From Methanococcoides vulcani (GTDB taxonomy: Archaea > Halobacteriota > Methanosarcinia > Methanosarcinales > Methanosarcinaceae), in assembly GCF_900111645.1 (NCBI RefSeq), contig NZ_FOHQ01000007.1, positions 62,001-126,000 of the forward strand: a stretch of DNA of 64,000 bases, read 5' to 3'. Positions 49,765-55,892 of the stretch are shown in pieces. Below the pieces are notes generated by a model. That model worked only from the letters and a program-made list of their open reading frames with translations. It was not told where the DNA came from and did not search any database. Both the position numbers and the translations under genes were made by a program. How positions within the stretch are numbered: the stretch's first letter is position 1; every line of letters starts with the position of its first letter.

Positions 49765-50568
49765 ATGGAAATAGATATACTTGAGTTATCCGATAGGTCA
49801 GCAAAGTTCATTTTATCAGGCACAACTGCAGCTTTTGCAAATGGTGTCCGTAGGGCAATGCTTGCCGATGTACCGACGCTAGCGATCGATGACGTGAATA
49901 TCTATAATAATACTTCTGTTCTGTATGACGAGCAGCTGGCATTGAGGTTGGGTTTGATCCCCCTCACATCCAGTCTTGAGGACTTTGTGCCGCAGGATAA
50001 GTGTACCTGTGAAGGTAGTGGCTGTCCTGCATGTACTGTCTCTCTGACTCTCAGCGCTGAAGCGGGTGAAGAGGAGCAGGTCATCGTTCATTCTGGTGAC
50101 ATTGTCTCATCTGACCCTAACGTACAGCCAGCAGACAAGAACATTCCTATAATTGATCTCAGGACCGGCCAGAAGGTTGTCCTTGAGGCAATTGCTCACA
50201 TGGGTTATGGAAATAAGCATGCAAAATGGCAGGCAGGCGTTGCTTGCGGCTATAAGAACATGCCTGTGATAACCTTTGAGGGATGTGACCGGTGCGGCAT
50301 ATGCGTCAATGCATGTCCAAGAAACATAATTCAGCTCGGTGAAGAAACTGCTGAGATCTCCAAGGACGATCTTCTCAAGTGCTCATTGTGCAGATTATGT
50401 CAGGATTCATGTGATATAGATGCTATTTCCGTTGGTGTAGATGAAAGATCTTTCATTTTCACAATGGAATCTGATGGTTCATACACTGCTCAACAGTTAA
50501 TCTTAAATGCAGTGAATACCATTAAGGGAAAAGCCTCTGAGATGCAAAACATCCTGAGCACACTGTAA
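49765..50568 (+). CDS. rpoD: RNA polymerase subunit D with two 4Fe-4S motifs
   Basis: Subunit D (Rpo3) is the alpha-like assembly subunit of archaeal RNA polymerase. The 267 residues have the alpha-type dimerisation domain (GTTAAFANGVRRAMLADVPT) with a CTCEGSGCPAC insert. The central ferredoxin-like domain has two complete cluster motifs, CDRCGICVNACP (about 172-183) and CSLCRLCQDSC (about 209-219). Two-cluster forms are typical of Methanosarcinales. Confidence 0.96.
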   Translation: MEIDILELSDRSAKFILSGTTAAFANGVRRAMLADVPTLAIDDVNIYNNTSVLYDEQLALRLGLIPLTSSLEDFVPQDKCTCEGSGCPACTVSLTLSAEAGEEEQVIVHSGDIVSSDPNVQPADKNIPIIDLRTGQKVVLEAIAHMGYGNKHAKWQAGVACGYKNMPVITFEGCDRCGICVNACPRNIIQLGEETAEISKDDLLKCSLCRLCQDSCDIDAISVGVDERSFIFTMESDGSYTAQQLILNAVNTIKGKASEMQNILSTL

Positions 50569-50571
50569 ATT

Positions 50572-50592
50572 GGAAATCTTGATTTCCTTTTT
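50572..50592 (+). terminator. Hairpin after rpoD
   Basis: GGAAAT (50572-50577), loop CTTG, ATTTCC (50582-50587), then TTTTTAC. It ends the S13 operon 3 nt past the stop and before the first tRNA-Leu. Confidence 0.55.
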
Positions 50593-50623
50593 ACTTTATA
50601 TTTAATTTCAGAAGATCTCATTT

Positions 50624-50711
50624 GCGGGGGTTGCCCAGCCAGGCCAAAGGCGCTAGGTTGAGGGCCTAGTCTCGTAGGAGTTCGTGTGTTCGAATCACAC
50701 CTCCCGCACCA
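50624..50711 (+). tRNA. tRNA-Leu (anticodon GAG), copy 1
   Basis: The acceptor GCGGGGG pairs with CTCCCGC. The anticodon stem-loop CTAGG-TTGAGGG-CCTAG gives anticodon GAG. A long variable arm and T loop TTCGAAT are present, and the 3' CCA is encoded. TATA-like TTTATATTTAA lies about 30 nt upstream. Confidence 0.96.
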
Positions 50712-50794
50712 AATCATTCTGATAAACGCCTTAACGATGCGATCCTGAGATCTTTCAGGATGGTAACTCGATATATTTAAGCAACAACCTTTTT

Positions 50795-50882
50795 GCGGGG
50801 GTTGCCCAGCCAGGCCAAAGGCGCTAGGTTGAGGGCCTAGTCTCGTAGGAGTTCGTGTGTTCGAATCACACCTCCCGCACCA
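50795..50882 (+). tRNA. tRNA-Leu (anticodon GAG), copy 2
   Basis: This copy is identical to the first over all 88 nt, including the encoded CCA, 171 nt downstream. It has its own TATA-like ATATATTTAA at 50771-50780, so it is probably transcribed independently. Confidence 0.96.
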
Positions 50883-51093
50883 TTTTATTATTTTCAATAA
50901 TTATGGCTTCTAGCTGGCGGTATCTATGAATTACTGGTATCTATTAATTGATGCTACCTACCAATTGATGTATCTATGATTGATCACGCCTATTAATTGA
51001 TGATCAATTTAGCTACTAATTTGATCAACCAATGAAATTTTCAAATAAAAAAAGAATGGGAATGCAAAAGCATCTCTCAGGTCAGGTATTTTG
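50883..51093. repeat. AT-rich intergenic region with short direct repeats
   Basis: TATTAATTGATG occurs at 50942-50953 and 50991-51002, with the shorter CAATTGATG at 50962-50970. GGTATCTAT occurs at 50919-50927 and 50936-50944, with GTATCTAT at 50970-50977. There is no ORF. The pattern looks like slipped duplication rather than CRISPR, since unit length and spacing are irregular. Confidence 0.45.
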
Positions 51094-53022
51094 TTAGTTC
51101 TCTTCTTCGATGTGTTCCGCTACACCCAAAACAACGATCTTTGTTTCTACCAGTGTATCAGAACTTTCAAGGATCACCTCATCCTTTTTAATATCTATCT
51201 TCACGGAATCCGGGTCAAGGTCTGCATCTCTCATGTATTCCCGAACGGTATCCTCCCCCAGTTTGAGGGCATGTTCCAATGCTTCTTCATATTCGTAGAA
51301 GTTCTCCCTTCCTTTTTCTGAATAAACGTAGAACTCCCAGTCCGGTGCGGCCATGGAAACCGGTCGTATCAGGATCTCAACTCTCCTGATACCCTTTGCA
51401 GCTAATGCTCCTGCGGCATTACCCACACTTGCAAATTCCGGTAATATGATCTCTGCATCCAGCAAGTTATTCATCTCTTCAAGATATGCGATCACAGGAC
51501 CACCTATTAGCACCACTGGAACTCCTACTTTGAACTGGATGGGTGATTCAACATCGAAGATATTACGTATCTCATCCCTTGATATGTTCTCCAGGAAGAA
51601 TGAAACAAGGTCCGCCGCCATGTTCTTGGCAAACTCCTTTTTGACATAGGATGCGAACTCCTCTGCTTCCATCTTACAAAGGGATCCGAGATACTGCGCA
51701 CCGATGCGGGATGCCTCTGCATTATACTCCGTATATTCACCAAGCACATGCAAAGCATCCGTGGGTGTAAAATTGATGGGTTGTATTAGCCTTTTCTGCA
51801 TGAGTATGTCCAGGTGCTTCGATGAAGGATATTTGTTTATGCGTTTGCGTATTTCCTTGAGGGATGTCGGCTCAGCCGGGATCGCATTAAGGATCTCTGT
51901 TTCTATATCGCTCAATTCCATCGGCTCATACTTCGTTCTTATGTAGAACTTGGTCGGCTGGAAGTTTATTCCTATTAAACCCTTTGAAGGCATTGGATTA
52001 TTGGCAAGTTGTTCGACGAATTGGGGGAACTGTGCCGCTGCCCTGCATAGGGGTATGACCCTTCGCGGTCCGAAATTTACCTTTGATGTACGGACCCAGA
52101 TATCACTGTCCCCTCCAAGTGCTGATGTTTCCATTCTGATGGCCTTGACCCTCGTCTTCCATCCGCCTACAACAGCGCCGGCTTCACTCATTTCCGGGAC
52201 GCCATCTCTTATCACGGACACGTCAGTACTCGTTCCGCCTACATCTATGACTGCACAGCTATCTCTCTTTGAAAGGAAAGAAGCACCTACAAGACTTCCG
52301 GCAGGACCCGAGAATATAGATTCGATGGGTTTTTCCAGTGCACCCTTGATGCCAACTACCGACCCGTCACATTTGAGCATGAATATCTTGGCTTTCATTC
52401 CACGGTTGCGGATCTCGGATTCCACACTGGACATGAACTTCTCCGTTATGGGCAGCAATTGTGCGTTGAAGAATGCCGTCACAGCCCTCTCAAATGCGCC
52501 AAGGTCCTGTGAAAGCTCATGTGCACATACCACTGGCATGCCTGTGGTCTTCCTGACGATTTCCTTGACCCTCAGTTCATGCTCATGGTTTCGAATGCTG
52601 AAATATGAAGAAACAGCAAATGCTGCAACATGCTCCTTTGTCCTCTGTGCAAATTCCCTTACTGCATTTTCATCAAGTGGCTCTGCTTCAGCACCCTTGC
52701 TATCGTGCCCTCCTTTGACCTGTATAAAATGTTCTGTGGGCAGGTCTGTGCTGATAAAATAGTCTCCTACGAGGATGAGTCCCACAGGGAAACCGGTGCC
52801 TTCAAGGATCGTGTTGGTGGAGAGGGTGGTCGATACTGACACAACATCTATCTGTGAAAGAATGTTCTGATCGATCCCGTCAAGAGCTTCACGAATACCA
52901 TCCAGTGGATCTGGATAGGTTGTCAAAGCCTTATAGGACGCAATTATAGAATCATCCGGGCTTCTTACAACAACGGCATCTGTATAAGTGCCTCCTGCAT
53001 CAATTCCAAGATTTAGTTTCAT
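51094..53022 (-). CDS. Hydantoinase/oxoprolinase (HyuA) family ATPase
   Basis: The 642-aa protein belongs to the HyuA branch of the ASKHA ATPases. The N-terminal phosphate loop is GIDAGGTYTDAVVV, and the second domain carries AVIDVGGTSTDVSVIRDG. Family members hydrolyse N-methylhydantoin or 5-oxoproline, or act in carboxylases, normally with a HyuB partner. No hyuB is adjacent, and an extra helical segment (about 395-440) is inserted. I chose ATG 53022, 4 nt after GGAGATC. It lies 32 nt downstream of the Orc1/Cdc6 gene. Substrate unknown. Confidence 0.8.
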   Translation of the reverse strand: MKLNLGIDAGGTYTDAVVVRSPDDSIIASYKALTTYPDPLDGIREALDGIDQNILSQIDVVSVSTTLSTNTILEGTGFPVGLILVGDYFISTDLPTEHFIQVKGGHDSKGAEAEPLDENAVREFAQRTKEHVAAFAVSSYFSIRNHEHELRVKEIVRKTTGMPVVCAHELSQDLGAFERAVTAFFNAQLLPITEKFMSSVESEIRNRGMKAKIFMLKCDGSVVGIKGALEKPIESIFSGPAGSLVGASFLSKRDSCAVIDVGGTSTDVSVIRDGVPEMSEAGAVVGGWKTRVKAIRMETSALGGDSDIWVRTSKVNFGPRRVIPLCRAAAQFPQFVEQLANNPMPSKGLIGINFQPTKFYIRTKYEPMELSDIETEILNAIPAEPTSLKEIRKRINKYPSSKHLDILMQKRLIQPINFTPTDALHVLGEYTEYNAEASRIGAQYLGSLCKMEAEEFASYVKKEFAKNMAADLVSFFLENISRDEIRNIFDVESPIQFKVGVPVVLIGGPVIAYLEEMNNLLDAEIILPEFASVGNAAGALAAKGIRRVEILIRPVSMAAPDWEFYVYSEKGRENFYEYEEALEHALKLGEDTVREYMRDADLDPDSVKIDIKKDEVILESSDTLVETKIVVLGVAEHIEEEN

Positions 53023-53054
53023 GCTGATCTCCATTTATATAACTCGTATTCATG

Positions 53055-54236
53055 TCACAGTTCCTTAAGCCTGTAATCTGAATAAAGCGTATTTTCTATT
53101 TTCTGTGGGTTCTTTCTCATTGATACAAGGCGTGTTTTGCCATATCTTCCCCTGCTTCGTACAGGTGCGGAAATGATCCCTTTCATGTCGAACTCTGAGA
53201 CAATCCCGGAAACGCTGGTGCGTCCCAGGGGATTAGTGCCTATCCGGTCACAAAATTTCCTGTAGAGCGTCTCAATTTGCCCTGTTGTGATCTTGTCGTT
53301 CAGCTCTCTGGTCAACCTGATGATGCTAAGCAATACAAGTTTTGAATGTATTGGAAGATTTTCCAGTGAACTTACGAGATAGTTATCTCCCATCTCTTCA
53401 TTTGCGAGTAGCACATGGTTCTCAGTAACCTTTTCTGCATTCGAACTATCGGCGATGTCCCCAGCCCTTTCTAACAATCTCAGGGATTTTCCTGAATCAT
53501 GTTCTTCCCCGGATAGCTCTGCACACAATGGGATGACTTCCTTTTCAACGATATCTTCCTCAAACGCAATGGCACAGCGTCCATTCAGTATTTGCTCGAT
53601 CTGAACCTTGCTATATGGGGGATATACAATGTTCCTGTGTTGAAGTGATGAAACAATATTCTGCTCAATTCTCCCCGAAAAGAACATATCGTCAGTTATT
53701 CCAATGATGCCTATGAATATATCATCTTCGATGCTCATATTCTCACCGGCATGGCTTAGGTCGTAGAGTATGCTGTGGTTCTTCAGCGCTTCGATCTCAT
53801 CAAAGACCACAATGATTGTAGTTCTCTTTTCGTTCAGTGCTTTCCATAGCGCTCTATAATATTTGCCCATGGAAAGCCCGGTCTTTGGTACTTCTGTTTC
53901 TGGTGATACTTTATCCAAGATCTCAAGTATGATCTTGCTGGTCGTGTTGATCTTCCGGCAGTTGATAAAGACGGGCACAACATTAAGCCCTTCTTTCTCA
54001 ATGGTCCCGGTCAGTTGTTTTAGAACAAATCTAACAACAGTTGTCTTGCCGGTTCCTTTTTTTCCGGATATCAAGGCATTTACAGGTTCTCCGTGGTGGA
54101 GTACAGGCCTGATCAGCGAAGCCACTTCTTTTACCTGCTCTTCTCTTCCAACAAGCTGGTCCGGAAGATATTGTGAAGATAGCACAGACCTGTTCCTGAA
54201 TTTCTGTATTCCGTTTATTCCGAAAATATCATTCAT
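53055..54236 (-). CDS. Orc1/Cdc6 family AAA+ protein
   Basis: The 393-aa protein has Walker A GKKGTGKTT, Walker B VVFDEIEAL, and a C-terminal winged helix with the Cdc6 signature (VSEFDMKGIISAPVRSRGRYGKT). Orc1/Cdc6 proteins bind origins and load MCM. Methanosarcinales carry more than one, and this sequence looks like a divergent one. I chose ATG 54236, 17 nt after the stop of the upstream MtmB-like gene. The longer frame overlaps that gene. An operon between a methyltransferase and a HyuA protein is unusual for a replication initiator. Confidence 0.85.
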   Translation of the reverse strand: MNDIFGINGIQKFRNRSVLSSQYLPDQLVGREEQVKEVASLIRPVLHHGEPVNALISGKKGTGKTTVVRFVLKQLTGTIEKEGLNVVPVFINCRKINTTSKIILEILDKVSPETEVPKTGLSMGKYYRALWKALNEKRTTIIVVFDEIEALKNHSILYDLSHAGENMSIEDDIFIGIIGITDDMFFSGRIEQNIVSSLQHRNIVYPPYSKVQIEQILNGRCAIAFEEDIVEKEVIPLCAELSGEEHDSGKSLRLLERAGDIADSSNAEKVTENHVLLANEEMGDNYLVSSLENLPIHSKLVLLSIIRLTRELNDKITTGQIETLYRKFCDRIGTNPLGRTSVSGIVSEFDMKGIISAPVRSRGRYGKTRLVSMRKNPQKIENTLYSDYRLKEL

Positions 54237-54252
54237 GATAATTCCACGAATC

Positions 54253-55623
54253 TTATTCAATACCGCAGTATCCGCTAACCTCTGCAAACACATCCCTGTA
54301 GAGTCCCATATATTCATCTGTGGGTCTCATCTCATATTCCGATCTTACGTCATAGCATTCTCTGAAAGGTTTACCTTCAGGAGCATGTACCAGCAAGTTC
54401 TCATATTTTTTGTAGATCTTTCGGACAGCTTCATCTGCTTCTGCAAGTGACAGGCTTGTAGCCATGTGTGCTACTTCTCCCATGAACCGGGATTCAAGTC
54501 CAGTGGAGTGGTCTGCACCCGCTCCGCGAGCTCCGACAGGTCCGATAAGCATGTCCCTTCCGGAAACAGTATCTCCAATAGCCTGTGCAGCGGTCTCATA
54601 GAACATCATGTCAGTACAGCATCCTGCAAGATTCCAGTAATATCGTGCTGTGTAGTGGTGCATGTTGCGTGAAATGGCAATGGATGATAGATTAGATCCC
54701 CACATGATCTCTTTTGTTGAGGATGAATTTGTATTCACATGCACAGCACCGGATACGTGTACACTTGCACTGGTAAGTATCTTTGACTGGATGGTCTCTG
54801 CTACATCAACGATGGCCAGTCCTTCAGGTGTACCAATACCTGTACCCCCGAAAACCGGACATTGCCCGCTCAGGAAATGATTTCCGTGCTCAAGGTGGAA
54901 TATGGATTTGTAGAACGTTTCATAGTCGGTCTTTAGTTCATCCAGCTGATAGACCTCCTGAACATCTGCACTGGAGTAAAGTTCATCAGAAGATACCAGC
55001 ATGTATGCCGGTGAAATAGTTGGTGTTCCCGGCCCCATCAATGCAAGACCTTCACGTCCTGCAAGTTTTGTTGCAAGCCTTTCCTCCCTCGCTTCTTTCA
55101 GGGCGGCAAGCATCTCAAAAGGTGTTTTACCGCGTATTCCTTTTCCACCCATCTTTTCCAGGGCGCCTGCATATAAGCCCTGTACGATAGGCTCCATGGC
55201 CGAGCTTAAGTGAACTTCAAGGAAGTTTTCCTCGGAAACCGTACCTCCCATGGGACCTCCGATTATAACCGGTGGTTCGGAGTCCATTGTGTATCTAAAA
55301 GGAACGATGACCTTTTCCTTTAGTCTTCCGATCTCAAGCATCTCAGAGGTGTTCAGGGATTTGATAATATCCTCTTCTTCGATCTTTATCGTTTTCTTTG
55401 TGTCGATACAGTAGATCCCCTGGGATCTCAAAAGCTGGACTGCAGCTTCAAATACAGAGTCTGCAAGGCTCGTATCAGTTGGAACGATACTCTCGCCATC
55501 ATATTTGATATCATATTCCTCTGCCAGTTCCTGTGATCGCATGAACACTTCCATGTCATGTTTTTCTTCGGACTTTTCTTCCCCGGTGGTAGCATATTTG
55601 AGGTATTTGTAGATATTATTCAT
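54253..55623 (-). CDS. MtmB-family (monomethylamine methyltransferase) homologue lacking pyrrolysine
   Basis: MtmB transfers the methyl of monomethylamine to a corrinoid protein and uses pyrrolysine (UAG) in its TIM barrel. This 456-aa protein aligns with it throughout from memory: GIYCIDT, VIIGGPMGG, TPFEMLAA, VYQLDELKTD, PVFGGTGIG, DTVSGRD, TTGMEAR-like STGLESRFMGEVA, and ECYDV. In the catalytic region it reads AGREGLALMGPGTP, where MtmB has GRPGMGV-Pyl-GPETS. The codon is ATG (55038-55036), residue 196. No TAG occurs in the frame. The start at 55623 follows AAAGGAG. No corrinoid protein gene is adjacent, so its substrate and partner are unknown. It heads a three-gene minus-strand cluster. 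Confidence 0.85.
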   Translation of the reverse strand: MNNIYKYLKYATTGEEKSEEKHDMEVFMRSQELAEEYDIKYDGESIVPTDTSLADSVFEAAVQLLRSQGIYCIDTKKTIKIEEEDIIKSLNTSEMLEIGRLKEKVIVPFRYTMDSEPPVIIGGPMGGTVSEENFLEVHLSSAMEPIVQGLYAGALEKMGGKGIRGKTPFEMLAALKEAREERLATKLAGREGLALMGPGTPTISPAYMLVSSDELYSSADVQEVYQLDELKTDYETFYKSIFHLEHGNHFLSGQCPVFGGTGIGTPEGLAIVDVAETIQSKILTSASVHVSGAVHVNTNSSSTKEIMWGSNLSSIAISRNMHHYTARYYWNLAGCCTDMMFYETAAQAIGDTVSGRDMLIGPVGARGAGADHSTGLESRFMGEVAHMATSLSLAEADEAVRKIYKKYENLLVHAPEGKPFRECYDVRSEYEMRPTDEYMGLYRDVFAEVSGYCGIE

Positions 55624-55892
55624 AATATTGACTCCTTTGTTTTTCATTAATGGTTTTGTTTTTATTTATGGAAATTCCATGCAAATGTACTCTAAACCTC
55701 TATTGACATGAAGCGGTACATATAACTTTCCATGTTTTTATTATCTGACCACAATTGACATGGAAAATCTTTGGTAATAATGTCTAATTATTTGTTATCT
55801 TTAACATATGGCAGAAAACGGCAGAATACTTTCACCCCGCTTGGCAGTCATTAATATATCCAGAAGTAATACTGTTAATTGAGGTGAAATAT
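55624..55892. promoter_or_regulatory. Divergent promoter region with repeated TTCCAT/ATGGAA sites
   Basis: A 13-nt palindrome ATGGAAATTCCAT (55668-55680) and an inverted pair TTTCCATGT (55727-55735) and ACATGGAAA (55758-55766) lie upstream of the MtmB-like gene. A minus-strand TATA-like element (TTATATGT, about 55718-55726) sits between them. On the plus strand AATATAT near 55853 could serve the 26-codon gene. The arrangement suggests an operator array, although no regulator is identified. Confidence 0.45.

Follow-up and report, generated by a model that had tools for sequence, protein, structure and literature searches.

A pyrrolysine-free MtmB homologue of Methanococcoides vulcani as a candidate corrinoid methyltransferase for an already activated methyl donor

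What does a member of the MtmB family do when the pyrrolysine (Pyl) residue of MtmB is replaced by an ordinary amino acid? Pyl is thought to be necessary since simple methylamines need activation before methyl transfer, and the question is raised by a gene within a 64,000-nucleotide stretch of Methanococcoides vulcani (contig NZ_FOHQ01000007.1, positions 62,001 to 126,000; referred to as the window), in which methionine occupies the Pyl position. We consider it probable (roughly 60%), judging from sequence comparisons, that the product (referred to as the window protein) functions as a substrate:corrinoid methyltransferase with the MtmB fold, in which Pyl would not be used because the methyl group of the substrate is already activated. 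The features that define the gene are as follows.

54253..55623, minus strand: non-pyrrolysine MtmB-family protein with the TIM (triose-phosphate isomerase)-barrel corrinoid methyltransferase fold (from sequence, profile, alignment, and model)
55036..55038, minus strand: Met196 codon (ATG), aligned with Pyl202 (TAG) of MtmB (from alignment and codon)
55632..55638, minus strand: ribosome-binding site AAAGGAG (from sequence; kept in relatives)

The complement of 54253..55623 encodes a single protein of 456 amino acids, and stop codons abound on the plus strand here; the preliminary description of the locus had placed the gene correctly, leaving its strand unstated. The start at 55623 (MNNIYKY) is supported because AAAGGAG lies 8 nt before the ATG; the stop codon is TAA, no in-frame TAG was present in the reading frame, and no RNA families were found in a search around the gene. 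The protein matched PF05369 (MtmB) over residues 3-450 with an E value of 1.1e-162 (542.5 bits; cut-off, 25), and is a full-length member, as previously claimed from the MtmB landmarks along its whole length. This was the only family matched: a search of the window genome (2,314,846 bases in 15 contigs) with PF06253 retrieved other genes, and the protein does not belong to the MttB/MtgB superfamily (PF06253, COG5598). Met196 aligned with X202, the pyrrolysine of 1L2Q, and also with the TAG column of 65/65 Pyl-containing MtmB proteins (Pyl-MtmBs), so that neither of the two refutations considered in the preliminary description, a misplaced Met or another family, applies, and its reading of an ordinary ATG in place of UAG was correct. 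Identity with the MtmB structures from M. barkeri was 32-33%. An AlphaFold model, a check recommended at the outset, had a mean predicted local distance difference test (pLDDT) score of 94.5, gave MtmB (1TV2/1L2Q/1NTH) as the best Protein Data Bank matches (template modelling (TM) score, 0.95; root-mean-square deviation, 1.5), and put the equivalents of Pyl202, E259, Q333, and Y335 on barrel strands. Since two regular mtmB genes with a TAG codon, one of them truncated by the end of a contig, are present in the same genome, Pyl decoding is available in this organism.

Compared with 10 relatives (78-91% nucleotide identity), the gene had a dN/dS (ratio of nonsynonymous to synonymous substitution rates) of 0.04-0.08, indicating strongly purifying selection. 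Orthologs were found in 47 of 112 Methanosarcinaceae genomes, distributed over 7 of 14 genera (58-96% identity) and including most Methanococcoides genomes; the remaining 7 genera gave no ortholog match at a threshold of E 1e-140. Two metagenome-assembled genomes, Methanosarcinales archaeon B74_G9 and Methanomicrobia archaeon JdFR-19 (57%), also carry orthologs. A recoded or broken gene was rejected on the basis of the TAA stop, the absence of in-frame TAG, and the low dN/dS.

The pocket was compared between 48 orthologs and the 65 Pyl-MtmBs at the Pyl position and at E229, E259, Q333, and Y335, which we take to be the residues around the Pyl adduct in MtmB structures. Pyl202, E229, E259, Q333, and Y335 were each invariant in the 65 Pyl-MtmBs. 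In the orthologs, E259 was replaced by Gly (41/48), Q333 by Tyr (46/48), and Y335 by Trp (43/48); the window protein has exactly Gly, Tyr, and Trp, and E229, retained in 45/48 orthologs, is the only one of these four residues that it keeps. The Pyl position itself was occupied by Met in 37 orthologs, Leu in 4, Phe in 3, Val in 3, and Ile in 1, by which Met as a specific catalytic replacement was rejected, and the presence of Met there is no signature in its own right. These results suggested that the pocket may have been rebuilt for a substrate needing no Pyl adduct.

Non-Pyl MtmB proteins had been known for years without a function, until in March 2026 MtqB from M. methylutens Q3c was reported to demethylate tetramethylammonium and choline, and methylamine weakly (PMC13044021). 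The analogy to non-Pyl MttB enzymes proposed in the preliminary description has thereby been shown for another non-Pyl MtmB, and among the several Pyl-free MtmB lineages, only MtqB has a demonstrated function. Our comparisons used MtqB-type proteins (n=3) recognised by context, not the Q3c MtqB sequence (ACT9XH_RS04775) itself; this assignment, based on a directly upstream corrinoid gene with MtbC as the best-scoring family, as described in PMC13044021, and on the fact that the copies in G004 and G001 are 78% identical, the value given there for AM1, is strong but indirect. One alternative is that a simple methylamine such as monomethylamine is demethylated without Pyl, as a low-activity backup to Pyl-MtmB. 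Recombinant MtqB is partly active with monomethylamine (11 vs 37-42 nmol/min/mg; PMC13044021), and the orthologs from Methanolobus and Methanomethylovorans lie in the proximity of a Pyl mtmB/mtbA cluster; however, Pyl202, E259, Q333, and Y335 have all changed together and remain so across the 48 members, and the window genome already has its two ordinary Pyl mtmB genes, which makes this function improbable.

In the tree of the MtmB family, five lineages, of which one has Pyl and four do not, were each recovered with 99-100% bootstrap. Pyl-MtmB paired with the MtqB-type and C lineages, and the clade of the window protein with lineage D (100/99); a topology joining this clade with MtqB and C was rejected (p value of the approximately unbiased test (p-AU), 0.002). 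The clade falls outside the Pyl clade: the window protein is no recent Pyl-to-Met mutant of an MtmB, and the notion of a protein "derived" from a Pyl enzyme is not supported. Compared with MtmB from Methanosarcina barkeri (1L2Q), family, full-length fold, and (in most members) E229 are therefore shared, but Pyl, E259, Q333, and Y335 are not, the lineage is different, and there is no adjoining mtmC. The tree is unrooted and does not tell whether the Pyl or the non-Pyl state came first; homologues sought on plasmids for rooting were not found, and a single scan of contigs gave close relatives only. Lineages C and D (L110, L113-L118, L121, L135) are two further pyrrolysine-free MtmB lineages in Methanosarcinaceae, with differing pockets; L114, which is outside the clade of the window protein, adjoins a BCCT transporter.

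The same tree bears on whether the window protein is simply MtqB. Both belong to the same Pfam family without Pyl, with Tyr at the Q333 position (3/3 in the MtqB type) and an aromatic residue at Y335 (Phe in 3/3); furthermore, MtqB is found in Methanococcoides, and strain Q3c has several non-Pyl mtmB genes (PMC13044021). Nevertheless, identity with an MtqB-type protein (L112) was 31%, residues at 202, 229, 259, and 260 differ (E229, kept in the window protein, is L/T in the MtqB type), two genomes (G001 and G004) carry both types of gene, and the two lie in separate lineages. With these MtqB-type proteins as reference, identity with MtqB was rejected by the 31% identity and the p-AU against grouping, and we regard this explanation as very improbable.

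The gene neighborhoods of relatives support, at the sequence level, a quaternary-amine-like chemistry. Copies in Methanolobus and Methanomethylovorans are usually head-to-head with mtbA near the Pyl mtmB cluster, and mostly tail-to-tail with that cluster. In six loci, three from Methanohalophilus and three from Methanolobus, the ortholog is head-to-head with a gene for a betaine/choline transporter (BCCT; PF02028, E ~1e-183) at a distance of 375-478 bp; the surroundings of these loci are otherwise of at least three kinds. One M. bombayensis copy (L130) sits directly after a gene for a B12-binding corrinoid protein that shares a single branch (Shimodaira-Hasegawa-like approximate likelihood ratio test (SH-aLRT) value, 99) and 44-46% identity with proteins of the MtqC type, a further likeness to MtqB that is found beside this member and not beside the window gene. 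An opuD-mtgB-mtgC cluster is a precedent for a methyltransferase with a transporter (PMC6855144). MtgB, a member of the non-Pyl MttB superfamily, is likewise a Pyl-free relative of a Pyl methyltransferase, acts on a quaternary amine, and is encoded next to a betaine transporter, an arrangement shared with relatives of the window gene; it differs in belonging to another family (TM ~0.55 and 10-11% identity).

The proposed mechanism is as follows. Pyl-MtmB has to form a methylammonium-like adduct from methylamine first; a substrate that is a quaternary ammonium ion, or an onium compound of another kind, is itself positively charged. Such a substrate may be bound in the TIM barrel at the site of the Pyl adduct, lined by the aromatic Tyr328 and Trp330 that replace Gln333 and Tyr335; the Co(I) of a corrinoid protein would accept the methyl group, and MtbA would hand it to coenzyme M for methanogenesis. 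In Methanococcoides, the partner would need to be one of the shared amine corrinoid proteins or the unpaired MtaC-like protein. The search for an orphan corrinoid protein, also recommended earlier, gave nine corrinoid proteins in the window genome, none of them MtqC-like and one, an MtaC-like protein (L161:12037-12813), without adjoining mtaB. Genes that follow downstream of this MtaC-like gene encode a BCCT transporter, an MttB-family protein lacking Pyl, and an MttC-like protein.

The substrate is most likely to be an osmolyte of the betaine type or another small onium compound related to it. The earlier proposal of a methyltransferase for a different substrate gains support from selection, the co-ordinated pocket changes, and relatives' neighbors, and no particular substrate is fixed by them. 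N,N-dimethylethanolamine is unlikely: M. burtonii is reported to use it, and the gene is absent from the genome taken as M. burtonii (G005). As plain growth substrates, choline and glycine betaine are also unlikely because of the phenotypes of two species: neither choline nor betaine reportedly supports growth of M. mahii, and M. methylutens is reported to use dimethylethanolamine but neither of these two. Both might still be consumed in small quantities or in other circumstances.

These phenotypes weigh against the preferred reading, the more so as the M. mahii genome (G017) has an ortholog adjoining BCCT and most Methanococcoides genomes carry the gene; several other points stand on the same side. 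The three types of neighbor in relatives (mtbA, BCCT, and the MtqC-type corrinoid gene) are all lacking at the window gene; no corrinoid gene is found beside it, and the lack of an MtqC-like protein in the genome was described above. E229 is Lys in 3/48 orthologs, all of them BCCT-linked Methanolobus copies, and the case for an onium substrate is built on neighbors and on analogy. The genes downstream in Methanococcoides are not methanogenesis genes:

53055..54236, minus strand: Orc1/Cdc6 replication-initiator homologue, starting 16 bp past the MtmB-like gene (order kept in Methanococcoides)
51094..53034, minus strand: hydantoinase/oxoprolinase (HyuA-like) protein, ~20 bp past orc1/cdc6 (order kept)

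In Methanococcoides loci, the MtmB-like gene is followed by orc1/cdc6 and then, nearly always, by hyuA; orc1/cdc6 and hyuA, in a tight run on the same strand, are likely cotranscribed with the MtmB-like gene. This arrangement, odd for a catabolic enzyme, and the fact that no cognate corrinoid gene was recognised in the window genome would fit a non-catalytic binding or regulatory protein, such as a sensor of methylated solutes or a decoy for corrinoid proteins. Purifying selection by itself does not tell such a role from catalysis. However, the full-length barrel with a high-confidence model, E229 in 45/48 members, the MtqC-like gene adjoining one member, and mtbA or a transporter adjoining others all disfavor the "derived non-catalytic protein" of the preliminary description, and we judge this explanation unlikely. 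Slightly less likely still is a corrinoid methyltransferase for another donor, e.g. a halomethane or a methyl ether or thioether: the methyl donors used by corrinoid methyltransferases are diverse, and the reported failure of M. mahii to grow on choline or betaine is evidence against these two as growth substrates, but a betaine/choline-type transporter recurs beside one subclade and an MtqC-type partner is beside another member. For the window protein itself, we infer a catalytic activity, an onium substrate, and a partner protein.

A broader reading, which we put forward tentatively and hold to be doubtful as a whole, is that the clade represents, in most Methanococcoides and Methanolobus, a novel corrinoid methyltransferase acting on a substrate of its own (not tetramethylammonium or choline), and that the ancestor of Pyl-MtmB was of the quaternary-amine type; this direction, not the reverse, would be favored because the clade has its aromatic residues in common with the MtqB-type lineage, to which it is not sister. 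What the same barrel may do with an already charged substrate is illustrated by the Pyl-free relatives, which also give a hint of the way in which Pyl was introduced. Members of the clade are common among methylotrophic methanogens of several genera, and may add to the compounds that are converted to methane.

Upstream of the gene, a tandem element was found with the following parts.

55748..55762, minus strand: operator-like box 1, CATGTCAATTGTGGT, followed by a CATGGAA arm at ~55728-55734 (from sequence comparison)
55719..55725, minus strand: TATA-like stretch TTATATG between the boxes (TATATATA in relatives; putative role)
55696..55710, minus strand: operator-like box 2, CATGTCAATAGAGGT, followed by a CATGGAA arm at ~55674-55680 (from sequence comparison)

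The composite element, TTCCATGTCAAT..AGGT and then CATGGAA, occurs as two copies ~52 bp apart in 10/11 aligned Methanococcoides-type loci, the eleventh (L109) having a single copy. Across the entire window genome, the only two exact matches to CATGTCAATNNNGGT are those within 55674-55762 on the minus strand, and this pattern was not found upstream of orthologs from other genera. The tandem element looks like a gene-specific operator, and together with the conserved neighbors makes induction and genetic tests straightforward.

Some minor observations concern the surrounding genes. The gene for orc1/cdc6 also adjoins the M. bombayensis pair (L130). A second HyuA-like protein in the window genome (L163:2770-4683), 55% identical to that of a relative, is encoded close to a corrinoid gene of the mtaC type, only a few genes away, and a link between HyuA-like proteins and methyltransferase systems is possible. 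Two tandem tRNA-Leu(GAG) genes are located at 50624-50711 and 50795-50882 of the window, and the open reading frame listed at 50490-50897 is an artefact of this tRNA-Leu(GAG) sequence.
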